A stretch of DNA of 64,000 nucleotides from Odoribacter sp. Lineage in GTDB: Bacteria; Bacteroidota; Bacteroidia; Bacteroidales; Prolixibacteraceae. A program made the translations under genes and the position numbers. Each line of letters starts with the position of its first letter. The stretch's first letter is position 1. The DNA lies in NCBI GenBank assembly GCA_013824715.1, contig PNOH01000004.1:62001-126000 (forward strand), read 5' to 3'. This document shows, in pieces, positions 34,057 through 62,975 of the stretch. Under the pieces are notes generated by a model. The model saw only the letters and a program-made list of their open reading frames with translations, searched no databases and was not told where the DNA came from.

Positions 34057-34104
34057 AACTTTAGATTAATTTTCCTGAAAATTCGGTGTATATTAGCATT
34101 TTGG
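34057..34104 (+). repeat. 40-bp element, copy A, upstream of an accessory gene
   Basis: Positions 34057-34096 start AACTTTAGATTAATTTTCCT and end TATATTAG. They match 35024-35063 at 37 of 40 positions and the reverse complement of 62936-62975 at 37 of 40. The match weakens but continues about 20 bp further (ATTTT..AATCTGTGG). The end TATATTAG is one base off the Bacteroidetes -7 box. The next gene starts 68 bp downstream of the 40-bp core on the same strand. Confidence 0.7.
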
Positions 34105-34164
34105 AATCTGTGGAGGAATATTGAACAGCCAAATCTGTAATCACAATATTTAATCTATTCGAAT

Positions 34165-34560
34165 ATGAACTCAAAATTAATCTTTCAACTTTCACTTTTC
34201 GGTTTGGCAATGGCATTTGCGACCGTTTATTTTATTCCGTCGAACATCGAACCACTTTTTTGGTTGGCAATTTTTGTTCTGTGCGCTTATTTGATCGCAA
34301 AGAATTGCACGGAAAAATACTTCCTGCACGGTTTAAGCGTGAGTTTGGTAAACGCCGTTTGGATTACCACTGTCCACATTATTTTGTTTGACACCTACAT
34401 AGCCAATCACCCCCAGGAAGCTGCCATGATGGCTAAAATGCCATTGCCCGATTCACCCCGGATAATGATGTTAGGAACCGGGCCATTGGTTGGCCTCATT
34501 TCCGGATTGGTGCTAGGTTTGTTTGCTATTATTGCTTCAAAAATTGTGAAGAAAAAGTGA
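34165..34560 (+). CDS. Small four-helix membrane protein, function unknown
   Basis: A 131-residue inner-membrane protein with hydrophobic helices at about 5-22, 28-45, 57-75 and 103-125, and a Met/Pro-rich loop (MMAKMPLPDSPRIMML) between the last two. It ends in KIVKKK. I do not recognise a family. The 40-bp element lies directly upstream and a REP-like palindrome starts 5 bp after the stop, so the gene sits in an acquired, repeat-bounded segment. Confidence 0.55.
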   Translation: MNSKLIFQLSLFGLAMAFATVYFIPSNIEPLFWLAIFVLCAYLIAKNCTEKYFLHGLSVSLVNAVWITTVHIILFDTYIANHPQEAAMMAKMPLPDSPRIMMLGTGPLVGLISGLVLGLFAIIASKIVKKK

Positions 34561-34565
34561 GTTTT

Positions 34566-34600
34566 TATCCCTGACAGGGTTTCAAACCCTGTCAGGGATA
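34566..34600. repeat. Perfect CCCTGACAGGG palindrome (copy 2 of 4)
   Basis: Arms TATCCCTGACAGGGTTT-type and its mirror, with an almost perfect 33-bp dyad (ATCCCTGACAGGGTTT / AAACCCTGTCAGGGAT around a central C). It abuts the truncated transposase reading frame at 34618 and could also end transcription of the 131-aa gene. Confidence 0.8.
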
Positions 34601-34617
34601 ATGAAAATTGTAAAATT

Positions 34618-34971
34618 GGCACACCATCACAACAATTCTCAAAACTTTTTAATTCATATGCGCAAGCCTTCAACAAGCGGACTGAACGGCATGGCAACCT
34701 TTTTGAACGGCCATTTAAGCGGAAGCTAATCGGTAATGAATGGTATTTGAAACAGGTGATCCTCTATATACATAACAATCCTGTACATCATGGTTTTTGC
34801 AGTCATCCGTTGGAGTATCCCTGGAGCAGCTATCTAACTTGTATTTCTTTGAAACCGACCAAACTTCATCGCGATGCAGTGATTGGCTGGTTCGATGATA
34901 GAGCAAATTTCAAATCTATGCACGACCAAAAAGTAGAAACTAATCAAATTGAAAAATGGCTTGATTTGTAG
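34618..34971 (+). pseudogene. Truncated REP-associated tyrosine transposase (RAYT)
   Basis: The open frame encodes the C-terminal part of a Y1/IS200-like RAYT transposase: SKLFNSYAQAFNKRTERHG with the likely catalytic Tyr, GNLFERPFKR, YLKQVILYIHNNPVHHGF, YPWSSY and a normal C-terminus WLDL. The N-terminal half with the HUH metal site is missing, and the frame runs back into the palindrome at 34566-34600, which marks the break. RAYTs mobilise REP palindromes; here the remnant lies between two palindromes of one family (34566, 34988). It cannot be active. Confidence 0.85.
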
Positions 34972-34987
34972 CGATTTCAATTCTTAG

Positions 34988-35016
34988 CCCTGACAGGGTT
35001 CCAAACCCTGTCAGGG
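34988..35016. repeat. CCCTGACAGGG palindrome (copy 3 of 4)
   Basis: Arms CCCTGACAGGGTT and AACCCTGTCAGGG-like with one central mismatch. It lies 17 bp after the RAYT remnant stop and 8 bp before element copy B (35024). Confidence 0.8.
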
Positions 35017-35023
35017 ATGGCGT

Positions 35024-35063
35024 AACTTTGGATTAATTATCCTGAAAATTCGGTGTATATTGG
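35024..35063 (+). repeat. 40-bp element, copy B, upstream of the AbiU2-like gene
   Basis: It starts AACTTTGGATTAATTATCCT and ends TATATTGG, 37 of 40 identical to copy A. The AbiU2-like gene starts 51 bp downstream on the same strand. Confidence 0.7.
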
Positions 35064-35113
35064 TGGATTAAAATCAGTGACAAGGACAGACTTGTTTAAG
35101 GCAATATGGCAAT

Positions 35114-35722
35114 ATGACTAAAAAGGATGAAATTGAAAATGAAATTGAAAGAATTTGGGCTATCCTGATCCTTGCAAAAGAATGCTTTCATTATTCATCG
35201 TATTTATTTAACCCTGAAACAAAAAAAGAACTTGATTATATTGAGAAATCAGCAGATCTTTGTTTTCTAAGACATATTATTTGGAGAACAACTGTCATAG
35301 AACTTTCAAAGCTTTTTAGTGAATCACAAACGAGAGATAGATATAACATCTGTCATTTCATTAATAAGTTTAAAAAAGGTGGACATTTTGGAGACACAGG
35401 AATAAGTGATAATCTAATCCAACACTGGAAATCTGAAATCAATGAAAACAAAACAACAATTGACACTGTACTAAAGTACCGTGACAAAGTCTATGCGCAC
35501 GATGACCCCAATCAGGATGTGTTATATACTAAAGAAGTAACTTTTGAACAGGCCGAACGACTGATGAAGATTGTTGAAAGTTTAATCACAGAAATTTATG
35601 AGACAATTTTAGACTCAACACCAGTTATAGAGACAGTAATTTTTGACCGACTTAGATTTGATATTATCAAAATACTCGCAGAAGCTAAAGAATGTGAAAA
35701 CAATTTTAGTAACCGAAAATAA
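35114..35722 (+). CDS. HEPN/AbiU2-like domain protein
   Basis: A 202-residue, mostly helical, soluble protein. Residues about 120-140 hold KYRDKVYAHDDPN, the R-x-K-x-x-A-H pattern of the AbiU2-type HEPN fold; such domains can be RNases in abortive-infection or toxin systems. The N-terminal half (FLRHIIWRTTVIELSKLF) matches the same group. No cognate partner is adjacent: it is flanked by the 40-bp element upstream and a palindrome downstream. Codon use is more A/T-rich than neighbouring purM, which supports recent acquisition. The defence role is inferred from the fold only. Confidence 0.65.
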   Translation: MTKKDEIENEIERIWAILILAKECFHYSSYLFNPETKKELDYIEKSADLCFLRHIIWRTTVIELSKLFSESQTRDRYNICHFINKFKKGGHFGDTGISDNLIQHWKSEINENKTTIDTVLKYRDKVYAHDDPNQDVLYTKEVTFEQAERLMKIVESLITEIYETILDSTPVIETVIFDRLRFDIIKILAEAKECENNFSNRK

Positions 35723-35819
35723 TGAAGCCCGCTCTGCCCTTCGTTTGAGTGATAGCGGTAACGAGGGGTTGTTGGTTCTGCGTCTGCGGCGCACCATAAA
35801 ATGTATCTTTTCTTGCCTA

Positions 35820-35852
35820 AGCCCTGACAGGGTTTCAAACCCTGTCAGGGCT
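35820..35852. repeat. Perfect CCCTGACAGGG palindrome (copy 4 of 4)
   Basis: A 33-bp dyad (AGCCCTGACAGGGTTT / AAACCCTGTCAGGGCT around a central C). It lies 36 bp upstream of the purM -7 box. The bases 35725-35800 before it (rich in GCGG and GAGGGG) are not in a supported gene. Confidence 0.8.
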
Positions 35853-35887
35853 AAAAATTCCACCTCCAAATATTTCCTCAAAAACAT

Positions 35888-35895
35888 TAACTTTG
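35888..35895 (+). promoter_or_regulatory. -7 box for purM-prfA
   Basis: TAACTTTG, a full match, 34 bp before the purM ATG. No good -33 box; the palindrome at 35820-35852 sits just upstream of that position. Confidence 0.5.
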
Positions 35896-35928
35896 CCGCA
35901 CTTAAACTGATAAGGTAATTCAGATTGT

Positions 35929-37098
35929 ATGTCAGCAGATAACCGATATATGGCGCGTGGTGTTTCGGCTTCGAAAGAAGACGTACACAATGCTATTCAA
36001 AACATTGACAAGGGGCTTTATCCCAAAGCTTTTTGCAAGGTTATTCCTGATATTTTGGGGGGCGATCCGGCCTGGTGCAACATCATGCATGCCGATGGCG
36101 CCGGAACCAAATCGTCGCTGGCTTACCTGTACTGGAAAGAAACCGGTGATATTTCGGTCTGGAAAGGCATTGCCCAGGATGCCATTATCATGAATCTCGA
36201 CGACCTGCTTTGTGTGGGCGCAACTGGTAACATTTTGTTATCGTCAACCATTGGCCGGAACAAAAACCGGATTCCTGGCGAAGTCATTACTGCCATTATC
36301 AACGGAACTGAAGAATTGTGCGCCGAATTGCGCGAAATGGGAATCAGCATTTATCCAACCGGAGGCGAAACTGCCGATGTGGGCGATGTGGTTCGCACCA
36401 TCATTGTCGATTCAACCGTGACCTGCCGAATGAAACGCGAAGATGTAATTTCGGCTGACAACATTCAGGCTGGCGATGTGATTGTCGGGTTGGCCTCATT
36501 CGGACAAGCCATCTACGAGAAAGAATACAACGGCGGCATGGGCAGCAATGGCCTCACCTCGGCCCGTCACGATGTATTTGCCAATTACCTGGCTCAAAAA
36601 TATCCTGAAAGTTTTGATCCGGAAGTTCCGGTAGAACTCATTTATTCAGGAACAAAGAAATTAACTGAACTCATTGATAGTGTTGGTCTGGATGCCGGGA
36701 AACTGGTTCTATCACCGACCAGAACTTATGCTCCGGTTGTGAAAGAATTGCTCGAATCGCTCCGGAAAAACATACACGGAATGATTCATTGTTCGGGTGG
36801 CGCCCAAACCAAAGTGCTGCATTTTGTTGATAATGTGCATGTAATCAAAGATAATCTGTTCGATGTTCCACCACTCTTTAGAATGATTCAGGAAGAATCG
36901 GGAACAAATTGGCAGGAAATGTACAAGGTTTTCAATATGGGTCACCGTTTCGAAATTTACCTTGCACCTCAATTTGCCGCAGAAGCGATCGCTATTTCAG
37001 GAAAATATAACATTGAAGCCCGCATTGTTGGGCGCGTTGAAGCCGCCGAAGGCAAAAAACTTACCATCAAGTCTCAATTCGGAGAATTTGAATATTAG
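35929..37098 (+). CDS. purM: Phosphoribosylformylglycinamidine cyclo-ligase (AIR synthetase)
   Basis: A 389-residue PurM-type enzyme that closes the imidazole ring of AIR with ATP, in the longer form usual in Bacteroidetes. Seen: RGVSASKEDVH at the start, HADGAGTKSSLAY (ATP/metal loop), IAQDAIIMNLDDLLCVGA, YPTGGETADVGD near 145, and the C-terminal domain MIHCSGGAQTKVLHF and FNMGHRFEIY. It is the first gene of the purM-prfA-pyrF unit, with 63 bp to prfA. Confidence 0.93.
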   Translation: MSADNRYMARGVSASKEDVHNAIQNIDKGLYPKAFCKVIPDILGGDPAWCNIMHADGAGTKSSLAYLYWKETGDISVWKGIAQDAIIMNLDDLLCVGATGNILLSSTIGRNKNRIPGEVITAIINGTEELCAELREMGISIYPTGGETADVGDVVRTIIVDSTVTCRMKREDVISADNIQAGDVIVGLASFGQAIYEKEYNGGMGSNGLTSARHDVFANYLAQKYPESFDPEVPVELIYSGTKKLTELIDSVGLDAGKLVLSPTRTYAPVVKELLESLRKNIHGMIHCSGGAQTKVLHFVDNVHVIKDNLFDVPPLFRMIQEESGTNWQEMYKVFNMGHRFEIYLAPQFAAEAIAISGKYNIEARIVGRVEAAEGKKLTIKSQFGEFEY

Positions 37099-37161
37099 CT
37101 ACGCTTTTCAGTTTTTTTCGTCTTCATTCTTCATTCATCATTCAAAATTCAACATTCATAT

Positions 37162-38247
37162 ATGGCAGACTATTCATTAATGGAAAAATACGAATCGATC
37201 AGATATCGGTTCGAAGAAGTTGGCTCACAAATTACCGACCCGTCGGTGATGAGCGACATGAAGCGTTACGTCAAACTCAATCAGGAATACAAACGCCTGG
37301 AGTTGCTGACCAACGCTTTCAAAGAATTTAAAGCAACAATTGATAACATCGAATCAGGCAAGCAAATTCTGGCGGAAGAAACCGACGAAGATTTGCGTGA
37401 AATGGCCCGTGAAGAAATCGAAGCTTCCGAAGCAATCATTCCTGAAAAAGAACAAAATATCAAATTGCTGCTGATTCCGGCTGATCCGGAAGACGGTAAA
37501 AATGCCATTCTTGAAATCCGTGCAGGAACCGGTGGCGACGAAGCCAGCATTTTTGCAGGCGACTTGTTCCGCATGTACTCCAAGTTCTGTGAACGCCGCG
37601 GCTGGAGGTTGGAAGTGACCAATACGAGCGAAGGTACTTCGGGTGGGTTTAAGGAAATCGTTGCTACTATTTCAGGAGAGGGGGTTTATGGAATCATGAA
37701 ATATGAATCGGGAGTACATCGCGTACAGCGCGTGCCACAAACCGAAACTCAAGGTCGTGTTCATACTTCGGCAGCTACGGTGGCTGTTTTGCCCGAAGCA
37801 GAAGAATTCGACATCGACCTGCGCGACAGCGATATCCGGAAAGATACTTACTGTTCTTCAGGACCAGGCGGACAGTCTGTCAACACGACCTATTCAGCCA
37901 TCCGTTTGACTCACATTCCGACCGGAATCGTTTGTACTTGTCAGGATCAAAAATCGCAGATTAAGAATTTGGCAAAAGCGATGATCGAATTGCGTTCGCG
38001 AATTTATAACCAGGAACATCAGAAATATCTTGACGCCATTGCCTCTAAACGTAAAACCATGGTTTCAACCGGCGACCGGTCTGCAAAAATACGGACTTAC
38101 AATTGGCCACAGGGACGAATTACAGACCACCGTATCAACCTGACTATTTATAACCTTCAGGCTGTAGTTGGCGGCGATCTGGACGAAATTATCGACAAGC
38201 TTCAGGTTGAAGAAAATGCAGAACGGCTGAAAGAAGCGGAGATTTAA
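37162..38247 (+). CDS. prfA: Peptide chain release factor 1
   Basis: A 361-residue release factor. The catalytic GGQ is in SSGPGGQSVNTT near 235; the coiled N-terminal domain and stop-codon recognition domain are complete (GVHRVQRVPQTETQGRVHTSAATVAV, cited as residues about 178-203). The terminal KEAEI is normal. It reads UAA and UAG. It is followed by a 160-bp region with a large inverted repeat and then the MNT-HEPN pair instead of directly by pyrF. Confidence 0.98.
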   Translation: MADYSLMEKYESIRYRFEEVGSQITDPSVMSDMKRYVKLNQEYKRLELLTNAFKEFKATIDNIESGKQILAEETDEDLREMAREEIEASEAIIPEKEQNIKLLLIPADPEDGKNAILEIRAGTGGDEASIFAGDLFRMYSKFCERRGWRLEVTNTSEGTSGGFKEIVATISGEGVYGIMKYESGVHRVQRVPQTETQGRVHTSAATVAVLPEAEEFDIDLRDSDIRKDTYCSSGPGGQSVNTTYSAIRLTHIPTGIVCTCQDQKSQIKNLAKAMIELRSRIYNQEHQKYLDAIASKRKTMVSTGDRSAKIRTYNWPQGRITDHRINLTIYNLQAVVGGDLDEIIDKLQVEENAERLKEAEI

Positions 38248-38260
38248 TGAAAAAATGTTA

Positions 38261-38311
38261 CGCGTTTCGGGTTACAAGTTGCGGGTTTTTGAACTCGTAA
38301 CCCGAAACGCG
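38261..38311. repeat. Long inverted repeat between prfA and the MNT-HEPN pair
   Basis: Perfect 15-bp arms CGCGTTTCGGGTTAC (38261-38275) and GTAACCCGAAACGCG (38297-38311) with a 21-base loop. It resembles the 'GGGTTACGGGTT / AACCCGAAACGCG' extragenic repeats of Bacteroidetes and could also act as a rho-independent-like stop for prfA, though it lacks a T-run. Confidence 0.75.
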
Positions 38312-38378
38312 CAACACGGAACATGAAACGTGATAAGTTTGTAGTATCGAGGTAGGCAAATACACACATTATTTTATT

Positions 38379-38386
38379 TATCTTTG
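38379..38386 (+). promoter_or_regulatory. -7 box of the MNT-HEPN-pyrF unit
   Basis: TATCTTTG, a full match. Transcription would begin near 38393, after the ATG at 38384, so the true MNT start is the ATG at 38408. No -33 box at normal spacing. Confidence 0.5.
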
Positions 38387-38407
38387 GATACACACAACAT
38401 TGATGTA

Positions 38408-38728
38408 ATGCAAAATTCCATTCAGTCGATAGAATTAGCCATCGTGGAGAAATTGAAACCAATTAATCCTCTTAAAATCATTCTTTTTGGCAGCTATGCT
38501 TACGGAACGCCTAATGCCGATAGCGATTTAGATATTTGTGTGGTTAAAAAAGAAGTAAAATCAAAATCGAAAGAAAAAAAAGAAATCAGGGAAAGATTGA
38601 AAGAATTGCTGATCGCCAAGGATATACTTGTTTCCAGCTTCGAAGAATACGAATTCTACAAAACGCAGTTTGGCTCTGTTTTTATGGATATTGAAAAAAA
38701 AGGGAAACTCTTATGGCCAGTTTCTTAA
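38408..38728 (+). CDS. MNT-type nucleotidyltransferase (MntA-like antitoxin)
   Basis: A 106-residue minimal nucleotidyltransferase. The active-site motif FGSYAYGTPNADSDLDICVV lies at residues about 28-47, with Gly-Ser and the Asp-x-Asp pair intact. Such proteins inactivate their HEPN partner, in studied cases by adenylylating it. The start at 38408 is set by the -7 box. The gene overlaps the HEPN gene by 16 bp. It is larger than nothing else around it and shows no frame damage. Confidence 0.85.
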   Translation: MQNSIQSIELAIVEKLKPINPLKIILFGSYAYGTPNADSDLDICVVKKEVKSKSKEKKEIRERLKELLIAKDILVSSFEEYEFYKTQFGSVFMDIEKKGKLLWPVS

Positions 38729-39117
38729 ATCAATATGAAATACTCTTCAACAAAGCAAAAGCTGACTTATCGGCTTCCAATGTTTTGTATGACAGATTAA
38801 TGGAAGGCAATTCAGGACTTGACCTTGAAGTTATTTGCTTTCACCTTCAGCAGAGCGCCGAAAAATTGATGAAAGCGGTTCTTTCAAAAAATCAAATCAG
38901 TTATCCCAAAATACACGACCTTGAAACCCTCCTGACCCTCATAACCGATAATGGCATTGCTATAGATACCAATAGAGAGTTACTGATAGAATTAAATGAT
39001 TATGCCGTTGAAGGAAGATATGCAATTATGAACGAAGAGCTTGATAGCATAAAAGAAATTTTCACTCTGGTAACCGATATGGCAAATGAGGCTGATAAAA
39101 TAATTAATAAAGAATGA
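38713..39117 (+). CDS. HEPN-domain protein (HepT-like toxin)
   Basis: A 134-residue helical HEPN protein of the family that pairs with MNT enzymes: [20 protein letters not shown] near 38-57 and KIHDLETLL near 63-71, then a Tyr/Arg-rich helix [11 protein letters not shown] near 97-107. Members act as RNases or as partners that hold the nucleotidyltransferase substrate. It overlaps the MNT gene upstream by 16 bp and the pyrF start downstream by 4 bp (ATGA), so pyrF translation is coupled to it. Confidence 0.85.
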
Positions 39118-39947
39118 ACCGAGAACAACTTTTTGATCAGATTAAACTGAAACGCAGCTTTTTGTGTATCGGACTAGATACTGATATTCTGAAAATCCCA
39201 CGTTTCCTGAATGAAACCAGTGACCCAATATTCGCTTTCAACAAGGAAATAATTGACTCCACACACGATTTGTGTGTTGCCTACAAACCAAACCTCGCCT
39301 TTTACGAAAGTCAGGGTGTTGCTGGCTGGATCAGCCTGGAAAAAACGGTGCGATACATCCGCGAAAAATATTCGGAACAATTCATTATCGCTGATGCCAA
39401 ACGTGGCGATATTGGCAACACATCGAACCTGTATGCACGCGCGTTTTTCGACCACATGGATTTTGATGCCGTGACTGTTGCACCATACATGGGCGAAGAT
39501 TCCATTAAGCCATTCATGACCTATCTCGACCGCTGGGTAATCGTTCTGGCGCTAACTTCGAACAAAGGAGCAGCCGATTTTCAATACCTGAAAAATGCCG
39601 AAACCGGCGAACAGTTGTTCGAATCGGTGCTGAAAACCTCGCAAACCTGGGGAACCACCGATAACATGATGTATGTGGTTGGAGCTACCAAAGCTGAAAA
39701 ACTGGAAGAAATCCGCGAACTGGTTCCCGATCATTTTCTGCTGGTTCCTGGCGTTGGCGCACAGGGCGGAAGCCTTCAGGAAGTTGCGAAATACGGAATG
39801 AACGAAGTGTGCGGACTATTGGTAAATTCTTCCCGCCAGATTATTTATGCTTCGGATGGTGAAGACTTTGCCGAAAAAGCACGCAATGAGGCTTTAAATG
39901 TTCAGGTTGAAATGGAAGAACTTTTACTTGAAGCCGGATTATTGTAA
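39114..39947 (+). CDS. pyrF: Orotidine 5'-phosphate decarboxylase
   Basis: A 277-residue enzyme of the longer (type 2, PyrF2) form that makes UMP from OMP. The catalytic set is in [15 protein letters not shown] near 93-107 (Lys and two Asp). Other conserved parts: CIGLDTDI near 18 and [11 protein letters not shown] near 205-215. Its ATG lies inside the end of the HEPN gene, whereas in relatives pyrF usually follows prfA directly. A bidirectional terminator follows. Confidence 0.96.
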
Positions 39948-40004
39948 AAATAAATCATAGAATTTGTATTGCATTCTGAATTTCAGGATAAGACAAAACT
40001 ATGC

Positions 40005-40040
40005 AACAAAAAAGGCTATCAGATGATAGCCTTTTTTGTT
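40005..40040. terminator. Bidirectional terminator between pyrF and tonB
   Basis: A perfect 16-bp stem AACAAAAAAGGCTATC / GATAGCCTTTTTTGTT with loop AGAT. A-run and T-run flank the G/C core on both strands, so it can stop both convergent units. Confidence 0.9.
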
Positions 40041-40068
40041 GTATAGTAACAGAGATATGCGTAGTTAA

Positions 40069-40851
40069 TTATTGTAAAACGAATGAGATAGGAATAGTAA
40101 ACTGTTGTTTTACTTTCATCCCGCCCTGTTTTCCAGGTTCCCATTTTGGTGAAGACTGAATAACCCTAACCGCTTCTTTATCAAGGGAAGGATCGACACC
40201 GCGTACCACTTTAACATCAACAACTTCTCCTTTAGAGTTTACTGCATACTGCACATAAACTTTCCCAGTTATGCCATTTTCGGCAGCAAGCACCGGGTAT
40301 TTTATGTTTTCTGTAACCCAATCCCGAAATGTGTTAACATCACCACCTAAGAAAGATGCTTGTTCCTCAACAATAATAAAAACTTTTTCTTCTTCAACAA
40401 TTGCAGTTTCTTCAACATTTACAACTTCGATTTTATCCGGAACTGGTTCATTGGTAACAGTTTCAGTAACTTCACTAACAGTAGCAAATTCAACTTCAAC
40501 GGTTACGCTATCAACAACAACCGGAGCAACATACTTTACCTGTGCTTCCGCTGCTGGTGGTGGTGGTGGTGGTGGTGGTGGTGGTGGTGGTATATCATCC
40601 TCGGCTTTTATGTTTTCCATACTTACCACCGTATTTTTCACTAGAGTAATATTCTTACCTCTGTTATTGTATGCCTGAATGAAAGGTACCATTACTGCGC
40701 CACCTAAACTGAATATTGATATCAAAAAGGCTATAAGTAAGAATTTTCTGAACTTTTTGCGCAATACATAAGCCCCATATTCCTTATTCCTCTTTTCGAA
40801 TACAATTTCTTCAAGGGTTATGGCTTCGTTTTTAAGCAATTCATTATCCAT
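40069..40851 (-). CDS. tonB: TonB energy transducer
   Basis: A 260-residue TonB. The cytoplasmic N-terminus EEIVFEKRNKEYGAYVLRKKF is the usual Bacteroidetes form, one membrane helix lies at about 36-58, then a periplasmic linker with 12 prolines in a row (residues about 88-99) and a Val/Glu-rich stretch, and the C-terminal domain at about 165-260 (NGITGKVYVQYAVNSKGEV, SSPKWEPGKQGG). It passes energy from ExbB/ExbD to outer-membrane receptors. It ends the exbB-exbD-exbD-tonB cluster. Confidence 0.93.
   Translation of the reverse strand: MDNELLKNEAITLEEIVFEKRNKEYGAYVLRKKFRKFLLIAFLISIFSLGGAVMVPFIQAYNNRGKNITLVKNTVVSMENIKAEDDIPPPPPPPPPPPPAAEAQVKYVAPVVVDSVTVEVEFATVSEVTETVTNEPVPDKIEVVNVEETAIVEEEKVFIIVEEQASFLGGDVNTFRDWVTENIKYPVLAAENGITGKVYVQYAVNSKGEVVDVKVVRGVDPSLDKEAVRVIQSSPKWEPGKQGGMKVKQQFTIPISFVLQ
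40555..40590. repeat. (TGG)12 trinucleotide run encoding the TonB polyproline
   Basis: Twelve uninterrupted TGG units on the plus strand (CCA codons on the coding strand). Slippage would change linker length by whole residues without a frameshift. Confidence 0.9.
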
Positions 40852-40874
40852 GATTCAAATCCATTTATTATGGT

Positions 40875-41534
40875 TTATTTTATGGCAGTAACTGACGATC
40901 CGGGATTAATACGAGACTGAACCATCGTTTTTTCCACTGGGTTAATATCGACAAGTGTGTACCGGGCAATATTGGTAATAGCCATTTCATCGATAATGTC
41001 AACTATATTTCGATATTTAACACCATCGGCCGCCTTGATTAGCACAATTGGCCCTAATTTATCCTCTTTATAGAAGCGCTTGATTCTGCCTTCTACCGAG
41101 TCTCTCGGAATTTTAAGTTTACCTTCTGTCACATCTTTCTTCATGTTGGCAACTCGGGCAAACAATTCTTTGTTTCGCTGTAAAAGTACCTTGCGGATTC
41201 CATCTTTCGAATAATCAACTTCAGCCAAAACCGGAAGTGGTTTATTTGGGTCGGCCAATCCTACATACCAGAGTATTTTGTCGTTTTCGACAAGTATAAT
41301 ATTTAGGGCCCTGCTTTTATCAAGCTCAGGTGGCTTTTCATTTTCCTTCGGCTTTTCTGGCAGAATGATCTCCATAACCTTGGGTTTATTGAATGCCGTA
41401 GTAAGCATGAAAAAAGTTAGCAACAAACAAGCAAGGTCAACCATTGGAGTCATATCAATATGAGTTCCGTGTTTCTTGACCTTCTTCTTGCCTTTACCTT
41501 TTTGGTGACCCTCTTCTTGAACTATTTCAGCCAT
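40875..41534 (-). CDS. ExbD/TolR-family protein, second copy
   Basis: A 219-residue proton-channel partner of ExbB. A basic N-terminus (KGKGKKKVKKHG) leads into THIDMTPMVDLACLLLTFFML, the single membrane helix with the conserved Asp (near residue 32) that carries protons. The periplasmic domain is about 165 residues and longer than in enteric ExbD. It lies between exbD copy 1 and tonB on the same strand. Confidence 0.9.
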   Translation of the reverse strand: MAEIVQEEGHQKGKGKKKVKKHGTHIDMTPMVDLACLLLTFFMLTTAFNKPKVMEIILPEKPKENEKPPELDKSRALNIILVENDKILWYVGLADPNKPLPVLAEVDYSKDGIRKVLLQRNKELFARVANMKKDVTEGKLKIPRDSVEGRIKRFYKEDKLGPIVLIKAADGVKYRNIVDIIDEMAITNIARYTLVDINPVEKTMVQSRINPGSSVTAIK

Positions 41535-41554
41535 TTTGGATTGTCTTTATAAAA

Positions 41555-42190: not shown

Positions 42191-42242
42191 TATTTTACAA
42201 TTTGTTTTTTCATCAATATCAGTTGAAGAAAAATTAAAAAAA

Positions 42243-54152: not shown

Positions 54153-54175
54153 TGCTTCTACACTAAATCAATTGC

Positions 54176-55063: not shown

Positions 55064-55090
55064 AAACTAAACCCACATAAATTTCTAATT

Positions 55091-56668
55091 ATGAAAAAAA
55101 CTAAATTGAAACAGCTTGCTTTCGGAGGACTTGTTATGACTGTGATTCTGGTACAAACCGCCTGTAAACCTTCCGACCTTTCAAAAGAAAACCTGATACC
55201 AAGGCCAGTTTCGGTATCAGCAACCGGAAGTTCATTTGACCTGACCGACCAGACAACTATTTTCGTTCAGGGTGAGTCAGTTGAATTGAAACAGATTGGC
55301 CAGTATCTGGCCGATAAGCTGAATCCTTCAACCGCACTGGGCATCGAAGTAAAAACAACCGCTGATTCTCCTGCTCCCGGGAACATATTTTTGTCACTTT
55401 CAGGCAGCGATGCCGAACTGGGCGATGAAGGTTACGAACTAACTATCACCGGCAAATCAGTTAATTTGGTGGCCAACAAACCTGCAGGACTTTTCCGTGG
55501 TATTCAAACCATTCGTCAGCTTTTACCCGCAAAAGTTGAAATGGGTGACAAACAGAAAGGTCCATGGAAGCTGGCAACTGGAGTAATTCGGGATTATCCG
55601 GCATACGGATACCGGGGTTCGATGCTCGATGTGGCCCGTCATTTCTTTACGGTTGAAGAGGTTAAAAGGCTGATCGATCAAATGGCATTCTATAAAATGA
55701 ATGTATTGCATTTGCATTTGTCCGACGACCAGGGCTGGCGCATCGAGATCAAATCGTGGCCAAACCTGACTGCACATGGCGGTAAAACTGAAGTGGGAGG
55801 AGGCGAAGGCGGTTTTTATACTCAGGAACAATATTCAGATATCGTAAAATATGCACAAGACCGTTTCATCACCATTGTTCCTGAAATTGATATGCCCGGG
55901 CACACCAATGCTGCTCTGGCTTCGTATGCCGAATTAAACATGGATGGTAAGGCCACTGAACTGTACACCGGTATCAAAGTCGGGTTCAGCACCCTGGACA
56001 CGAAAAAGGAGATTACCTACCGGTTTATTGATGATGTAATTCGTGAATTGGCTGTATTAACTCCCGGAGAGTATTTGCATATTGGAGGAGATGAGTCTCA
56101 TGCCACCAAAATTGAAGATTACATTCCTTTTATGAACCGTGTTCAGGATATGGTAATTGCCCATGGGAAAAAGGTATTGGCATGGGACGAAATCGCTTTG
56201 GCAACTCTAAAACCGAATACCGTTGTACAATATTGGGATAAAGCCGAAAATGCGATCAAAGGTGTGGCGCAGGGTGCAAAAGTATTAATGTCGCCGGCTA
56301 AAAATGCATACCTCGATATGCAGTACGATTCAACCAGCGTCTTCGGTTTGCATTGGGCCGCCTACATCGAAGTGGATAAAGGCTACAACTGGGATCCTGC
56401 CAATTTGGTTCCTGAAATTAAAAAGGAAAACATTATGGGAATTGAAGCCCCGCTTTGGTCCGAAACTGTTTCAAACCTGAAAGAAGCTGAATACCTGATT
56501 TTTCCGCGTCTGCCTGGATATGCCGAAATTGGCTGGACACCGGTTGAATTGCGGAATTGGGATAATTATAAAATCCGTTTGGCTAATCACGGCGAACGGA
56601 TGAAAGCCATGAACATCAACTTTTTCCCATCGAAACTGGTTCCGTGGGATGCAAAGGATAAGAAATAA
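55091..56668 (+). CDS. GH20 beta-N-acetylhexosaminidase, lipoprotein
   Basis: A 525-residue lipoprotein (lipobox VQTAC, residues about 21-25). After an N-terminal GH20b domain (about 35-155) the catalytic (beta/alpha)8 barrel shows YRGSMLDVARHFF near 172, HLHLSDDQGWRIEI near 205, and the catalytic pair Asp-Glu in HIGGDESHATK near 333-343; the Trp residues VQYWDKAE and WSETVSNL line the GlcNAc site. It removes terminal GlcNAc or GalNAc from glycans by substrate-assisted catalysis. A terminator follows at 56694-56724. Confidence 0.93.
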   Translation: MKKTKLKQLAFGGLVMTVILVQTACKPSDLSKENLIPRPVSVSATGSSFDLTDQTTIFVQGESVELKQIGQYLADKLNPSTALGIEVKTTADSPAPGNIFLSLSGSDAELGDEGYELTITGKSVNLVANKPAGLFRGIQTIRQLLPAKVEMGDKQKGPWKLATGVIRDYPAYGYRGSMLDVARHFFTVEEVKRLIDQMAFYKMNVLHLHLSDDQGWRIEIKSWPNLTAHGGKTEVGGGEGGFYTQEQYSDIVKYAQDRFITIVPEIDMPGHTNAALASYAELNMDGKATELYTGIKVGFSTLDTKKEITYRFIDDVIRELAVLTPGEYLHIGGDESHATKIEDYIPFMNRVQDMVIAHGKKVLAWDEIALATLKPNTVVQYWDKAENAIKGVAQGAKVLMSPAKNAYLDMQYDSTSVFGLHWAAYIEVDKGYNWDPANLVPEIKKENIMGIEAPLWSETVSNLKEAEYLIFPRLPGYAEIGWTPVELRNWDNYKIRLANHGERMKAMNINFFPSKLVPWDAKDKK

Positions 56669-56693
56669 CAACCAATCATATAAATAATAAATC

Positions 56694-56724
56694 AAACGCT
56701 CCTGGCCCGGGGCGTTTGTTGTTT
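56694..56724 (+). terminator. Intrinsic terminator after the GH20 gene
   Basis: Stem AAACGCTCC / GGGGCGTTT with one U.G pair and a 6-base loop, then GTTGTTT. It starts 26 bp past the stop. Confidence 0.8.
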
Positions 56725-56775
56725 ATATTCAATATCTTTAAGGTAGCCATTTTGCTTTGCTAATTGCCATTCCCA

Positions 56776-59190
56776 ATGAAGAATCTATTTGCTCTCTTTC
56801 TGGTCAATTTATTCCTGATAGGCAACCTTTCTGCACAGAATATTGAGAAATGGATTGACTCCAAAAAACCGCTTCTATTCGAAAAACTTTATCTTCATGT
56901 TGACCGGGAGTTTTATTCGCCCGGCGATAAGATATGGATAAAAGTTTACCAGGTAAACGGAATCACACATAAACTGAATTCGAATTTCAGGAATGTATTC
57001 GTTCAACTGGTTTCGGAAACGGGAAAGGTCATTACTGAGCATGTTTTGTTTTCGGTCAATGGACAGGCCCATGGTGAAATCGTTACCGAAAATCTGGAAA
57101 GCGGAATGTACACCATCAGGGCATATACCAGTTACCTCAAAAACTTTGGCGAAGAGGCTTGTTTTCACAAAAGAATTTGGATTTCCAGGACTATGAATCC
57201 GGCGAATCTGTTTGATAACAATCAGGCCGATTATTCGAAAATTGATGTCTCCTTCTTCCCCGAAAGCGGAAATCTGGTGCTGAATGCCGTTAATACTGTT
57301 GCATTTAAGGCTATTGATGCAAAAGGAAAAGGAATTTATGTGAGCGGTAAAATCCTGAATGATCGGGGCGATACTATTTCTTCGTTCAGTACAAGCTTTT
57401 TGGGAATGGGGAAATTAATCATGATGCCCATGGAAGGTGATAACTATCTGGCCACCATTGATCAGGTTCCGGGAATGAAAGTCCGGTTTGAACCTGCAAA
57501 TCCAAACGGTATTTGCCTGAATTTTAAGGAGAGCAGGGAGTCTCTCTTGTTTGGAGTTTCAGCAAATATGAAACTGGAAAATAAGCCTGCCTTTTATTTT
57601 GTGGCCTCCCACAAAGGATTTGTTTTGTTTTATGAAAAGATTGAAATGAATGATTTTGCGGAGTCATTTAAGCTGAGTAAAAGCAGATTCCCCAAAGGAA
57701 TATCGAAAATATCATTACTCGATACTCTGCTCAATCCATTGGCAGAACGCCTGATTTTCGTGGATGACGGGAAAGATGATATGCTCAAATTGCAGCTAAA
57801 CAAAAGGGAATTCAAACCCCGCGAAGAAGTTACGATCAATATTGAAGCGCTACTGGCATCAGCCGATTCCATTAAATCTACACTTTCAATGGCGGTTGTG
57901 AACAGGAATTATTTGGGTACTTCAGGAAATAGTCAAAACATAAAAAGTTATTTGCTGCTCGACTCCGATTTGAAGGGCGCCATCGAATCGGCAGCTTCCT
58001 GTTTCGTAAACGACGGGCATATTTCGTCGGCCGAAAAACTTGATTTACTGATGATGGTACAGGGATGGAGGTCCTATTTCTGGGACGATATCGAACAAAC
58101 TGAAACTCCTCCAATCGTTGAATGGAACGATGCCGGGATTAATATTAAAGGAGTGGTGAAAAAGCTGTTCTGGGAAGCACCCGTTCCTGAAGCTAAAGTT
58201 GTTCTGGGCCCTGCCGGTGGAAATTTTCTTATGATAGAAACTACTTCTGACGAAAATGGACGATTTGAATTTAAGCAGATCTATCTGCGCGATTCGACCC
58301 AGGTGATGATTAATGCCAAAACGAAAAACGGTGGACGAAATACCAGGATTATACTCGATCCGGCATTTCAAAAAGATTCGGTCATTCAGGTTGATTCAAT
58401 CAATCAAACAACTTTTAATATCGAACCCCACCGGAAGTTTGCCATGGATAATTATTACCGAAGAATGAAGGAAATGGGTTATAATCCGGAGAAAGGGAGT
58501 ATTCTTTTGACAGGAATTGATGTGATTGAACAGCGGATCCCGAAAGAAGCCACCCAATTCAGGATTTACCAGAATGCGGATAAATCACTCAAAATTACAC
58601 CAAACGATTATCAGTACAACAATATTTTTGATTATCTGGACGGCAAAGTAGCCGGATTAATTGTCACCGGTGAACAGATTTCGATCAGGGGTGGAGGAAT
58701 GCCACTCTTTCTGATAGATGGCATCGAAATATCCGATTTTCCACCGGGATCAGGAAATGTCCTGAAAGAAATCAGGGCCCTGCGAATGAAGGAAATTGAT
58801 AAAATTGATATTCTGAAAAGCGGCGGAAATCTCGCTTCGTTCGGATCGAAGGGCGCTGATGGGGTTATTGCCATTTATCGTACAACCGGCGATTATACCT
58901 TAAACAAGGAGCATTATGTCTGGGGGCGAATTACGGAACGAATTAATGGTTACCAGCGAATCGGGAAATTCTATTCGCCCAAATACACAATTGAAAATAT
59001 TAACTTGCCTCAGCCCGATTTCAGGCCTACCTTATACTGGAATCCGGATGTGAGTTTACTAAATGGTAAGGCAAATCTTGGGTTTTTTACTTCTGACGAG
59101 ACCTCCAATTATGATGTTTTTATCGAAGGAATCAGCAAGAGTGGCAAAATCTGCTACGGAACAACAAGTTTTAGGGTCAATAAGAAGTGA
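56776..59190 (+). CDS. Exported MG2-like/TonB-plug domain protein without beta-barrel
   Basis: An 804-residue exported protein. I start at ATG 56776 (MKNLFALFLVNLFLIGNLSA, a signal peptide); an in-frame TTG at 56764 is unlikely. Residues about 25-130 resemble macroglobulin MG2 domains (LYLHVDREFYSPGDKIW, GEIVTENLESGMYTIRAYTSYL, in part). Residues about 470-520 look like a carboxypeptidase-regulatory beta-sandwich, and about 620-690 like a TonB-receptor plug (ISIRGGGMPLFLIDG, GADGVIAIYRTTG). No outer-membrane barrel follows. Such proteins are common in Bacteroidetes, function unproven. Confidence 0.75.
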   Translation: MKNLFALFLVNLFLIGNLSAQNIEKWIDSKKPLLFEKLYLHVDREFYSPGDKIWIKVYQVNGITHKLNSNFRNVFVQLVSETGKVITEHVLFSVNGQAHGEIVTENLESGMYTIRAYTSYLKNFGEEACFHKRIWISRTMNPANLFDNNQADYSKIDVSFFPESGNLVLNAVNTVAFKAIDAKGKGIYVSGKILNDRGDTISSFSTSFLGMGKLIMMPMEGDNYLATIDQVPGMKVRFEPANPNGICLNFKESRESLLFGVSANMKLENKPAFYFVASHKGFVLFYEKIEMNDFAESFKLSKSRFPKGISKISLLDTLLNPLAERLIFVDDGKDDMLKLQLNKREFKPREEVTINIEALLASADSIKSTLSMAVVNRNYLGTSGNSQNIKSYLLLDSDLKGAIESAASCFVNDGHISSAEKLDLLMMVQGWRSYFWDDIEQTETPPIVEWNDAGINIKGVVKKLFWEAPVPEAKVVLGPAGGNFLMIETTSDENGRFEFKQIYLRDSTQVMINAKTKNGGRNTRIILDPAFQKDSVIQVDSINQTTFNIEPHRKFAMDNYYRRMKEMGYNPEKGSILLTGIDVIEQRIPKEATQFRIYQNADKSLKITPNDYQYNNIFDYLDGKVAGLIVTGEQISIRGGGMPLFLIDGIEISDFPPGSGNVLKEIRALRMKEIDKIDILKSGGNLASFGSKGADGVIAIYRTTGDYTLNKEHYVWGRITERINGYQRIGKFYSPKYTIENINLPQPDFRPTLYWNPDVSLLNGKANLGFFTSDETSNYDVFIEGISKSGKICYGTTSFRVNKK

Positions 59191-59308
59191 TGATAACTAT
59201 TTCGAAACACCTTTAAAACTCAGTCATTCGATTATCTGTATTCAAGATGTGAATGATTGAGGATATGCAAACCCCGCCACAAAGAATTTGTTTTCTCCAT
59301 CCATCACT

Positions 59309-60181
59309 TTACTTGTCCAACAACTGAATGGCGCTCGGGATTGCCCACTCCCTGGTTATAATTTTTGGTGATGGCGAGGTATCTTTCAAATCGATATATT
59401 CCATTTTTGCGTTAATGGGCGTTTTAATAAGATAGGGTTTGCATTTGGGGATAGCTGCAATGGCCCTTTTAGATCCCTCATAAAGCGCTTTTCGTGTTTC
59501 TGCGAAAGGATACAAAACCGCTGCCTCACGCGATAAACCCTGCTTTGTTGCAACAGTAACAATATTATTCCCAAAAAACTTTACGGCTTCACGGCAGGTA
59601 GCTACATCACCGGTAACCAATATGGGAGGAACGCCAAAATATCCGGCAATGGTTGCTGTTTGAGCCAACTCGCCCGATTCCACACCGTTGTACCAATATT
59701 TATTCTCCGTTTTCGACGACTGTGTGTGATTCAAAACTCCATCGGGAGTACCATTCATGGCATGAAATCCAAACATAACCACTCCGGAATAGGTGCTGTC
59801 CAGACCCCAGTGATTACTTTCTGGACGCGGTTTGCCGGTGACATACCTGGCTCCGGGTTCCATCAAATGGGGGATAATGGCCTGCGTTCCGTGACCATCG
59901 ATTATAAGTATTTCGGTAGCGCCGCCATCGCGGAGGCCACGAACGACAGCTGCCAAATCGCCCATAAAATACTCACATGCCTGCAGATTAGCCGGGGTAT
60001 CTTTTTCTCTCGTCTGTGCAAACCGATATACTCCGCTAACTCCTTCAAGATCGGTTTCAATAAATATCCTGATTTGGGCGCTGGCCGGTGAAAAACTGGT
60101 AAACAGGAGCGGAAGGAAAAACAGAATCCGATGGCCGTAGGAAGTATGCCATAAAGATTTCTTTTTTTTGGTTTCATCCAT
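59309..60181 (-). CDS. M55-family D-aminopeptidase, exported
   Basis: A 290-residue protein with an N-terminal hydrophobic segment (residues about 17-36, RILFFLPLLFTSFSPASAQ), so probably exported, and an M55 (DppA-type) zinc peptidase core: IETDLEGVSG (metal Asp and Glu) near 42, IDGHGTQA near 94, FGFHAMNG near 136 and the Glu in GVESGELAQ near 168. The family cuts peptides with N-terminal D-amino acids, as found in peptidoglycan. It stands alone. Confidence 0.88.
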   Translation of the reverse strand: MDETKKKKSLWHTSYGHRILFFLPLLFTSFSPASAQIRIFIETDLEGVSGVYRFAQTREKDTPANLQACEYFMGDLAAVVRGLRDGGATEILIIDGHGTQAIIPHLMEPGARYVTGKPRPESNHWGLDSTYSGVVMFGFHAMNGTPDGVLNHTQSSKTENKYWYNGVESGELAQTATIAGYFGVPPILVTGDVATCREAVKFFGNNIVTVATKQGLSREAAVLYPFAETRKALYEGSKRAIAAIPKCKPYLIKTPINAKMEYIDLKDTSPSPKIITREWAIPSAIQLLDK

Positions 60182-60318
60182 CTTATTAAGTTTTATAACA
60201 TTCTGATAATAAATATTTTTGTTTTTGCTAATTCCATTTAAACCTATTTTCTGTGTATATAAGTTATTAATGAGTATCGGGTATTTTACCTAAAGACCAA
60301 AATATTGAGCAATTATCC

Positions 60319-60443
60319 TTTGCCGTTGACTTCAGTCAACGGGTAAAAGATTGATGAAAGACCTGGGCTTTAGCCCAATAACCTGTGGCTAAAGCCATTA
60401 GATATGTCTGTCAATCTATCCGTCAGATGAAGCTGACGGCAAA
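60319..60443. repeat. 125-bp composite palindromic repeat (MITE-like)
   Basis: Its two ends are related inverted copies, TTTGCCGTTGACTTCA... and, on the other strand, TTTGCCGTCAGCTTCA..., and each is itself a 20-bp dyad (60323-60342 and 60420-60439). In the middle are two smaller dyads, TGGGCTTTAGCCCA (60364-60377) and TGGCTAAAGCCA (60386-60397), the second related to the first. It contains no gene. This layout is that of a non-autonomous mobile repeat. The rest of 60182-60478 shows nothing. Confidence 0.75.
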
Positions 60444-60478
60444 ATATAACTTAGGTACAGAACCAGATACTCATAAAG

Positions 60479-61723
60479 TTATTTAATCAAATGTAATTCA
60501 GGTAACGGATACCAAAATGCTTTATTAATTATTTCATTATTTTTTTCAGTTCCTAAATTCATAAAATCAATAATTTTATCTTCGGCAGGGAAATAACCAT
60601 GACAATATCGAGGAGTAACAGTTTCAGGTACAATGCCAATATAATCAACTCCGCTTGCCATTCTGTATATTTCCTCCGCTTTCCCAAGAATAAATGGAAT
60701 GTAATGTTTGTAAAAAGCAATAGCGATTTTTATTGTTTCTATAACTCTTGCTCTGCTATTACCTTCTAATCTAAAGTACCAACCATTTTCATCATGACAA
60801 ACGAAAAGCGAAATATGTGTAGAATTTCCACCTCTGCAAATCTCCCATGGATGACCGCCACAATTCTTTTCAGTTTCGTACCATTTATGAAAGTCTTGAT
60901 ATGATTTTTCATTAAGCATTGTGAGTCCGCAATCCCGACCATCAGCCATTGCAATATATTTTTCTTTTGCTGTTAAAATCTTATTAGATTTATCAAAATA
61001 CTTGTTTGCATCGTATCCAATCTCGCAAAACCGAAAAAAATCTCCTGAATTAATTGCTGATAAATATCTGAATGTCTTCGATTCTGACTGAACTTTGACT
61101 TTTTTAAGGATTTTTAGTATTTCAGGCGAAATTGTATTTTTAAAATCCTGCATATGTTCTGGGAAAATAGACCAGTAATCGCTTCTCAAGATGCGACCTG
61201 TACGTTTTTTATGAGGCAAATTTGCATCAATAAAATCATTGAAATCTTTAACATTGTTCTGAATTAAAATAGTAGTATGCTCTGTAAGCTTTAATAACCA
61301 TTCTATTAATTCTGTATGAAAATCATATACTTGCTCACTACTACTGTCATCTGCATTAAATTGAAGAGTTAGCTTTGAATCTATATAAAAATAAAACACA
61401 TCTGCATATTTAGTTATTGCGAAATTGTACCATTTAATTTTATTAGGATAATAATATTGCCATAAATCTTCAAAGTCTTTCTTATTGCTAGCCTCGCCAT
61501 CTTTTAAATATTCATTGAAATCACCAAAATCTTCTATTTTACCACGTCCCGCAGAAATCCAGATATTTCGAAATTCATCGTCGCCTTGTTTTTCTAAACA
61601 GCACATCATATCAAAAATAGAAATCAAATATTTTATGCTAGATACATTTTTAACTTCAGGATAACTCCGACAAGAATTTATTAATCTGTCTATATAAGGT
61701 GCAGGTACGTTTTTAATTTCCAT
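60479..61723 (-). CDS. Unrecognised 414-residue cytoplasmic protein
   Basis: I do not recognise this protein. It is soluble, has no signal peptide or membrane helix, and is A/T-rich compared with its neighbours (Lys, Asn, Ile, Tyr and Phe are frequent), which suggests horizontal transfer. Noticeable parts: a helical N-terminal half, the stretch GGHPWEICRGGNSTHISLFV near 288-307, NGWYFRLEGNSRARVIETIK near 314-333 and TPRYCHGYFPAEDK near 377-390. The Cys and His residues there could bind metal, but spacing fits no motif I know. It is bounded by a MITE-like repeat downstream and a 250-bp gene-free region upstream. Confidence 0.55.
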   Translation of the reverse strand: MEIKNVPAPYIDRLINSCRSYPEVKNVSSIKYLISIFDMMCCLEKQGDDEFRNIWISAGRGKIEDFGDFNEYLKDGEASNKKDFEDLWQYYYPNKIKWYNFAITKYADVFYFYIDSKLTLQFNADDSSSEQVYDFHTELIEWLLKLTEHTTILIQNNVKDFNDFIDANLPHKKRTGRILRSDYWSIFPEHMQDFKNTISPEILKILKKVKVQSESKTFRYLSAINSGDFFRFCEIGYDANKYFDKSNKILTAKEKYIAMADGRDCGLTMLNEKSYQDFHKWYETEKNCGGHPWEICRGGNSTHISLFVCHDENGWYFRLEGNSRARVIETIKIAIAFYKHYIPFILGKAEEIYRMASGVDYIGIVPETVTPRYCHGYFPAEDKIIDFMNLGTEKNNEIINKAFWYPLPELHLIK

Positions 61724-61974
61724 ATTTTTTTTATTACCATTAGTCCAATGTCATTTCACCGTGCCGTTGTCTTTTCTCCGCTAATGCATATCACTGACAA
61801 CATCCGCAGTCTATGCCCCTTTTTCTTCTGGGGCTCATTATATTGCGAATGTTGTGTGTTATGCGCATACTCTACTCTGCATACGAAGCGGTTCTGTTCG
61901 TGTCCGCACACACTTTGTTCAAAGCGATTTCCTTTAGAAACGGTGTCGTTATGATAGTTCACAATGTTCAGATT
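61724..61974. other. 251-bp gene-free region between the 414-aa and hydrolase genes
   Basis: Both strands are open for about 68 codons here, but neither frame has a plausible protein or start context, so no gene is called. The only structure is a weak dyad GCCCC...GGGGC at about 61816-61836 without a T-run. It carries the promoter of the 414-aa gene if that gene is transcribed separately. Confidence 0.4.
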
Positions 61975-62826
61975 TTATTTATCCAAAAAAGTAAGCACCA
62001 TTTTCATAAGTGCAACTCTCTTATTTGTGAAAGGATGGTCTGTCTGCCAAACCTCATAATCAAAGTAGGATTTGTTTGAACTTTTTATTGCATCGGCTAT
62101 TTCTTTATTGCGAGTATTTTCATCAAGCATTATTATTTTTTTACTCGCTAATGCGTTGCTGTCATTTGCCAAATTATAATAGGCAGGATTTTTAATCACG
62201 GGTTTATAAATATTTTTTGCGGATGTATTTAATACAAAAGATTCATCTGCTAAATTTTCTATCTCCATTGTATCTTTAATGTTTTTGTAGTCCCCATATA
62301 TGTTCCATGTTGAAAGAGCAAATCCCTTTTTTACGCTTGGAAGTTCCTGCAATGCTTTAAGACAAACCCAAGCTCCCATGCTATGTCCAAAGAGAACAAT
62401 ATTTGAGGTGTCAACTTGTAAAGAGTCCTGATATTTTTTACAAAACCCAACCACATTCACGACATCTTCTACACAATTTTTAAAACTAAATTGTCCTTGG
62501 CTACCCCACGAACCACGATAGTTAAAATAAATAACATTCCATCCATGTGCCCTTACAACTTGTGCTAAGTCAAGATTCCGTTCGTTACCCGGATAGCCAT
62601 GCAGCAGTATTAATGTTGGATGCTTTTGTCCTCCGTTAGCTTTATAAATAAAACCTTGCATAAGACTGTTGCCAGATGGAATTGCTAATTCTATAAAACC
62701 AGCAGGTGAGATCTTGTCCCAAGTAATATCTCTCAATACAATAGTGTCAGCAGTGGATTGAGCAAAACTACAAGTAGATGCTAAAGTGATTGTGATTGTT
62801 AGAAATGAAAATAATTGTTTTCGCAT
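61975..62826 (-). CDS. Exported alpha/beta-hydrolase (dienelactone-hydrolase/BAAT-like)
   Basis: A 283-residue hydrolase. I start at ATG 62826, which gives a clean signal peptide (MRKQLFSFLTITITLASTC, cleavage near SFAQ); an ATG at 62859 adds 11 residues before it. The alpha/beta-hydrolase core has oxyanion region LILLHGYPGNERNLD near 70, nucleophile elbow FGHSMGAWV near 150, an acidic loop near 240 (MLDENTRN), and the His in QTDHPFTNKR near 265. Substrate unknown. It is A/T-rich, and the 40-bp repeated element lies upstream in the same orientation, so it is likely an acquired gene. Confidence 0.8.
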   Translation of the reverse strand: MRKQLFSFLTITITLASTCSFAQSTADTIVLRDITWDKISPAGFIELAIPSGNSLMQGFIYKANGGQKHPTLILLHGYPGNERNLDLAQVVRAHGWNVIYFNYRGSWGSQGQFSFKNCVEDVVNVVGFCKKYQDSLQVDTSNIVLFGHSMGAWVCLKALQELPSVKKGFALSTWNIYGDYKNIKDTMEIENLADESFVLNTSAKNIYKPVIKNPAYYNLANDSNALASKKIIMLDENTRNKEIADAIKSSNKSYFDYEVWQTDHPFTNKRVALMKMVLTFLDK

Positions 62827-62935
62827 TGTCATTATATAGTTTAAAAATGTTTGTTTCATGCAGTCAGTTTGATGTTAGCAGTGTCGCCAAAGAGTTGCCC
62901 ATAACGGTTGGCTACCCGCCACGAATTTTAAAATA

Positions 62936-62975
62936 CTAATATACAATGTATTTTCAGGAAAATTAATCTAAAGTT
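62936..62975 (-). repeat. 40-bp element, copy C, upstream of the alpha/beta-hydrolase
   Basis: On the minus strand it reads AACTTTAGATTAATTTTCCT to TATATTAG and matches copy A at 37 of 40 positions. It lies 109 bp before the ATG at 62826, in the orientation of that gene. No CCTGACAG palindrome accompanies this copy. Confidence 0.7.

Follow-up and report, generated by a model that had tools for sequence, protein, structure and literature searches.

Three copies of a 40-bp intergenic repeat, each located upstream of a different accessory gene and oriented into it, occur in a 64,000-nt stretch of Odoribacter sp. (assembly GCA_013824715.1, contig PNOH01000004.1, positions 62,001-126,000 of the forward strand; hereafter, the window). 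With a confidence that we regard as evenly balanced, they would form a small repeat family, specific to this genome among all the data searched, of past or present predicted 5′ control regions that were reused through local copying. The best reading of the sequence is that the repeat is a genome-private promoter- or operator-like element, partly spread by REP-associated local duplication, which would resemble a low-copy mobile promoter, and the sequence evidence at hand does not seem to indicate any new capture machinery. If the copies are promoters, they would offer a small, clear case of newly arrived genes gaining expression, with a control region copied locally, perhaps together with a REP, ahead of unrelated genes. 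The features of the locus are collected in Table 1.

Table 1. Repeat copies, REP-related features and downstream genes in the window.
Feature	Position	Strand	Observation
Copy A, 40-bp core	34057..34096	+	similarity reaches ~34116
Copy B, 40-bp core	35024..35063	+	similarity reaches ~35084
Copy C, 40-bp core	62936..62975	-	similarity reaches ~62916
Degenerate REP palindrome, 12 bp 5′ of copy A	34007..34044	+	aligns with the REP before copy B
REP palindrome, 5 bp 5′ of copy B	34981..35018	.	DNA fold z -6.2
REP palindrome, immediately 3′ of the 131-aa gene's stop codon	34562..34599	.	
REP palindrome, between AbiU2-like and AIR-synthase-like genes	35815..35852	.	
Stretch with truncated REP-associated tyrosine transposase (RAYT)	34600..34971	+	profile positions 81-146 of 146 only
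131-aa predicted protein, behind copy A	34165..34560	+	no Pfam family
AbiU2-like HEPN protein, behind copy B	35114..35722	+	PF18734, E=1.3e-8
Alpha/beta-hydrolase, behind copy C	61975..62859	-	PF12146, PF00561

The copies were re-found exactly at the coordinates and on the strands given in a preliminary description of this DNA, and pairwise alignment of their cores confirmed the agreement with copy A claimed there for both B and C (37/40 each), the B/C pair sharing 34/40 positions. The weaker similarity described for about 20 bp past the core was also recovered, with 9/20 (A/B), 14/20 (A/C) and 12/20 (B/C) identical positions. This contrast between core and tail gives Fisher p values of 1e-4 (A/B), 0.049 (A/C) and 0.051 (B/C), tests that are not independent and that flatter the contrast, since the core edge was placed where similarity falls. 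A 29-letter pattern derived from the copies matches the window three times; 100 dinucleotide shuffles gave no match. The gap between core and start codon measures 68 bp in A, 50 bp in B and 76 bp in C (109 bp with a later hydrolase ATG at 62826), in line with the 50-110 bp proposed earlier. Copy C lies between two divergently oriented genes, the hydrolase gene and one identified by eye as leuS.

In the whole 4.6-Mb genome only these three copies were found, all within 29 kb, scoring 67-70 bits with the sequence model R1, as compared to 16.5 bits at most for the rest (150 of the 619 first-look candidates were scored). Among 148 other relatives there were eight matches only, each with 3 mismatches, and no convincing copy emerged from these relatives, from 394 class genomes or from 394 phylum genomes, the last two being overlapping samples searched with filters stricter than those of the own-genome search. 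The best R1 scores there were 20.4 bits (class) and 23.5 bits (phylum). The repeat was likewise absent from 41 purM-region and leuS-region loci of the genus. Both places, the omp-purM gap and the region upstream of leuS, vary among genus members, some of which share content.

The three downstream proteins are mutually unrelated (best BLASTP E 0.5). The Pfam matches bear out the AbiU2-like and alpha/beta-hydrolase identities proposed before, while the 'membrane protein' used for the 131-aa product is a term of that earlier description. For this 131-aa protein no match was obtained in the other 118 genomes searched or in plasmids. The AbiU2-like protein has a match in 1 of 394 other class genomes (E<=1e-8; 28% identity) and a best plasmid match of 31% identity, and the hydrolase has matches in 43 of the other 118 genomes (E<=0.001; the best-scoring at 29% identity) and a best plasmid match of 33%. 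All three genes had been called A/T-rich, which is true of the AbiU2-like and hydrolase genes, at the 3rd and 7th GC percentiles of 382 ORFs, but not of the 131-aa gene (GC 41.7%, 51st percentile).

To the left of A and B, the two flanks align with a score of 41 (best of 2000 shuffles, 30). The flank of A against the REP consensus alone scores 23, a value equalled by 1/2000 shuffles. As the A/B homology runs into the REP, copying is indicated rather than convergence. The RAYT remnant located between the two copies matches NF047646 with E=1.4e-10 and 41.2 bits, under the curated cut-off of 80, and three of the nine genomic REP sites of this type fall in this 1.3 kb; beside six other REP loci in the genome the repeat is missing. 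A local duplication, either REP/RAYT-associated or illegitimate, would have placed the same REP and leader before two genes at a variable spot, after which the leader alone may have been copied again, as C, to a second variable spot at a distance of 28 kb. The copies would then have been retained for supplying expression or regulation to accessory genes, a pathway of promoter reuse through local copying rather than one driven by a dedicated gene-capture machine.

With regard to promoter signals, the Bacteroidetes sigma-A promoter carries TAnnTTTG at -7 and TTTG near -33, according to two sources (PMC7366714, PMC9723704). All three cores end in TATATTRG, which keeps five of the six fixed letters of TAnnTTTG and is plausibly spaced from the start codon: 76, 58 and 84 bp to the ATG, as computed from coordinates, within the 21-186 bp spanned by 65 native TAnnTTTG boxes. 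Unlike the consensus, the -7 element reads TATATTAG or TATATTGG, the third T of TTTG being A or G, and TTTG was not found at the usual -33 spacing in any copy; a TTTG occurs in copy B only, starting 29 bp before TATATT. TAnnTTTG itself is enriched upstream of genes in this genome, and its reverse-complement control (54/235) lies above the reversed one (26), as divergent promoters would give. For the variants TAnnTTAG and TAnnTTGG there is no such upstream enrichment (17 vs 19 and 15 vs 20 in the reversed control), which makes the -7 assignment weak. The closeness to the -7 box proposed earlier is a closeness to variants that this genome does not favour ahead of its genes. As for the transcript, the leader RNA folds no better than shuffles (z 0.64, -0.40 and 0.06), and a structured leader RNA was rejected on these values near 0; an Rfam scan of the window returned tRNA and no other family. 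An antisense coding relic was also rejected, the reading frames, judged by eye, being inconsistent between copies.

The conserved core could instead be the shared operator of one regulator, or the promoter of an alternative sigma factor, defining a tiny three-gene regulon whose putative site would be the palindrome AATTTTCCTGAAAATT between flanking conserved blocks. We consider this unlikely, although the dyad (AATTTTC and GAAAATT around CT) lies within the conserved core of all three copies, perfect over 7+7 in A and with one mismatch each in B and C, and although a core conserved above its tail, subject to the caveat on edge choice, and a -7-like box deviating from the sigma-A consensus would both fit it. 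On the other hand, an identity of 37/40 exceeds the needs of an operator, the A/B homology reaches into the REP, and the genome offers no further sites. Near matches of the dyad (<=2 mismatches in 464 kb, our three copies included) number 65 vs 9 for the reversed sequence, a count that says little, dominated as it is by coding matches; only 9/65 are non-coding, the rest lying mostly inside genes. It also seems doubtful that the copies are a neutral relic, either of a short mobile element (a MITE or the end of an IS) or of repeats dispersed between genes, lying upstream by chance. A non-coding 40-mer in random orientation has a probability of 0.305 of pointing into a gene within 150 bp. The observation that the repeat always lies upstream and in gene orientation, which holds for all three copies, is a weak rule, with a chance probability of ~0.03-0.06 for non-coding 40-mers. 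Moreover, 20/34 non-coding repeat pairs in the 464-kb sample are local (6 from this locus and 14 outside), which indicates that short intergenic DNA is commonly copied locally in this genome, and the RAYT remnant between A and B would suit such a relic as well. Against it, neither terminal inverted repeats nor target duplications were seen by eye in the copies and their flanks (the repeat search had a minimum of 25 bp), and conservation is uneven between core and tail, with the same caveat.

A gene-capture system that has the repeat as its recombination or attachment site and inserts cassettes of site plus gene was the other interpretation raised in the preliminary description, and it appears improbable. 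It would account for unrelated genes without close relatives in the samples searched, for spots that are variable among genus members, for A and B as direct repeats around one gene, and for the strong palindromes found 3′ of all three genes, REPs in the case of the 131-aa and AbiU2-like genes and an unrelated attC-shaped one behind the hydrolase gene (61786-61864; DNA fold z -5.3). However, these palindromes are of two unrelated kinds, without an attC consensus visible by eye, and the one after the AbiU2-like gene seems native to the purM-like gene, since genus member G006 has, by eye, a related palindrome at that place. Only the 131-aa gene has copies on both sides, together with the REP/RAYT remnant, no copy lying 3′ of the AbiU2-like or hydrolase genes; the leader does not fold under RNA parameters, and no further copies were found in this genome, at the genus loci or, convincingly, in the other genomes searched. 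Another version, in which leader and gene are captured together, possibly by REP/RAYT single-strand chemistry acting on the 3′ palindromes, so that accessory genes are put behind a copied promoter or operator at variable spots, is highly improbable in our judgement; were it true, incoming genes would be expressed at once, under one regulator. Of the mobile leader or promoter first proposed, a repeated promoter-like leader ahead of unrelated accessory genes, with a core conserved above its tail, finds support; its being carried with cargo does not.

Mobile promoters are reportedly sets of at least two near-identical intergenic copies located upstream of non-homologous genes, a definition that the three copies recall by their identity and by the genes behind them, while differing in being three only, within 29 kb, and in having no convincing counterpart in the other genomes searched; both promoter activity and movement are putative properties of this repeat. 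The locus resembles REP/REPIN systems with RAYT in the REP just 5′ of A and B and in the remnant between them, but the repeat itself shows no hairpin, it is limited to three copies, and upstream of C the REP similarity is not significant (score 18, reached by 62/2000 shuffles). Integron cassettes with attC share with it the unrelated, partly A/T-rich accessory genes and the attC-shaped palindrome after the hydrolase gene, and differ in that the repeat here lies 5′ of the genes, without a fold, and the 3′ palindromes are not of one kind.

A last point concerns the isolated matches in foreign DNA. The class and phylum searches together gave 41 foreign matches, all of them treated as chance; 19 of the 24 checked lie inside ORFs >=100 aa and five outside (L065, L074, L075, L156, L160). 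Three exact patterns had 0, 1 and 0 matches in viral contigs, the single one looking coding by eye, and copy A as a 90-bp query retrieved from plasmids only matches covering 24-40% at E 3-9. An exact-core scan of genome contigs, which demanded TTTTCC and could therefore not find B-type copies, gave 8 stretches of 12.0-25.1 bits. The best of these (L016, 25.1 bits), with the highest score of all foreign matches, is from a Lokiarchaeia contig and lies inside an ORF, as do 6/7 of the stretches checked, a check that leaves aside L020 (14.2 bits). The remaining stretch, L017 (20.8 bits), comes from a Spirochaetia contig and has an intergenic position just 5′ of an ORF.

The three copies of the element, a 40-bp core ending in TATATTRG, stand as the preliminary description gave them in coordinates, strands and agreement with copy A (37/40 for both A/B and A/C, and 34/40 for B/C). 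The profile search of the own genome (4.6 Mb, 85 contigs) that it proposed returned copies A, B and C only, whether with the core pattern at up to 3 mismatches or with a sequence model (67-70 bits, everything else reaching at most 16.5 bits). All three fall inside 29 kb, and the pattern was absent from 100 shuffles of the window. Over the 20 positions of the tail that follows the core, identity drops to 9 (A/B), 14 (A/C) and 12 (B/C), and ungapped similarity beyond it is low (0-4/10 per block, bar one B/C block at 7/10). The higher conservation of the core (Fisher p 1e-4, 0.049 and 0.051 for A/B, A/C and B/C) would argue only mildly for a constrained site, because the comparisons are mutually dependent and the core edge was placed where similarity falls.

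Copies of the element and neighbouring features (positions in the window)
Feature	Positions	Strand	Description
Copy A	34057-34096	+	40-bp core
Copy B	35024-35063	+	40-bp core
Copy C	62936-62975	-	40-bp core
Gene pair	38384-39117	+	nucleotidyltransferase-HEPN, MNT/HEPN type (PF01909 + PF05168)
Long palindrome	60260-60485		REP-like, after 414-aa ORF
414-aa ORF	60479-61723	-	A/T-rich, adjoins hydrolase gene
Strong palindrome	61786-61864	-	imperfect, 79 bp, after hydrolase gene

In related genomes the same search yielded weak matches only. The pattern at up to 3 mismatches matched in 8 of 148 other genomes, always at exactly 3 mismatches, seven of these matches scoring 8.7-17.3 bits under the model and the eighth (stretch L012) being unlisted at E 10; the genome_contigs scan used the exact core pattern only. 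Model searches of 394 other genomes of the class and 394 of the phylum, two overlapping samples, likewise gave weak matches (19 of the 24 checked, among 41 listed, inside ORFs), and the 41 genus loci examined (193 kb in all, 19 of them from around purM and 22 from around leuS) gave none at E up to 1. On the data searched, the family would thus be confined to this genome, since no convincing copy appeared in other genomes or at these loci.

Copy A precedes a 131-aa gene (no Pfam match, and none among 118 other genomes), copy B an AbiU2-like HEPN gene (Pfam; a match at E <= 1e-8 in 1/394 other genomes of the class) and copy C an alpha/beta-hydrolase gene (Pfam; matches at E <= 0.001 in 43/118 other genomes, with 29% identity for the one that scores best), and the three proteins are mutually unrelated. 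They had been described as A/T-rich accessory genes, which holds for two only, because their GC percentiles among 382 ORFs are the 51st, 3rd and 7th. Within the genus, content varies both in the omp-purM gap and upstream of leuS (a gene named by eye), as read by eye, and some members have DNA in common there (e.g. G003 and G006 in the gap). That the element always takes the gene's orientation is true of the three copies; as a rule it is suggestive only, because a randomly oriented 40-mer drawn from non-coding DNA has a 0.305 probability of pointing into a gene no more than 150 bp away, giving 0.028 for three of three, and 0.057 when the orientation may be either of the two. Local repetition was also counted in 464 kb of the genome (non-coding pairs of 35-150 bp at >=80% identity, the tandem array at the start of contig C1 removed first): 20 of 34 pairs are local, including three formed by the element and three formed by REPs (repeated palindromes) at this locus, and seven show consistent upstream orientation, three being the element's own.

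One such REP is common to A and B, 12 bp and 5 bp upstream respectively (alignment score 41, shuffle maximum 30, n=2000), and there are two more of the same type, one behind the 131-aa gene and one ahead of the purM-like gene. Three of the nine such sites in the genome, at up to 3 mismatches, lie in a 1.3-kb stretch at this locus, and between A and B a REP-associated tyrosine transposase is represented by its C-terminal part. Copy C has no significant REP beside it, nor do the remaining six REP loci carry the element. We favour a putative promoter or operator leader, A and B having perhaps been copied together with a REP and the leader having been copied locally. The core holds an operator-like dyad, AATTTTC-CT-GAAAATT; no fold of the leader as RNA was found. 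The -7 box consensus TAnnTTTG occurs in 82/235 upstream regions of this genome, versus 26 read backwards and 54 in reverse complement. The box-like TATATTRG is indeed present, but its variants TAnnTTAG and TAnnTTGG are not enriched upstream (17 sites against 19 read backwards, and 15 against 20), and no copy has a -33 TTTG at the usual distance. Bacteroidetes promoters are treated in PMC7366714 and PMC9723704, mobile promoters and promoter capture in PMC8049555 and PMC11111574. A mobile leader, as earlier proposed for these unrelated downstream genes, is possible; a recombination site of a gene-capture system is unlikely. On the whole, this reuse of a promoter-like repeat is ordinary, or at most mildly interesting.

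The strong palindrome after the hydrolase gene is unrelated to the REPs, folds strongly as single-stranded DNA (z -5.3) and has no repeat in the 464-kb sample; it is attC-like in shape, with no attC consensus seen by eye. The adjoining 414-aa ORF (3rd GC percentile) has no Pfam or PADLOC match and a weak NCBIfam one (E 0.034, below cut-off). Within the long palindrome that follows it, a 132-column alignment (60313-60443) recurs on contig C6 at 86% identity. The nucleotidyltransferase-HEPN pair sits between peptide-chain-release-factor-like and pyrF-like genes, both named by eye. Elsewhere in the genome, local intergenic repeats, short (41-141 bp) and 74-98% alike, are densely clustered at about 14800-20000 of stretch L186 (about 74.8-80 kb of contig C5).
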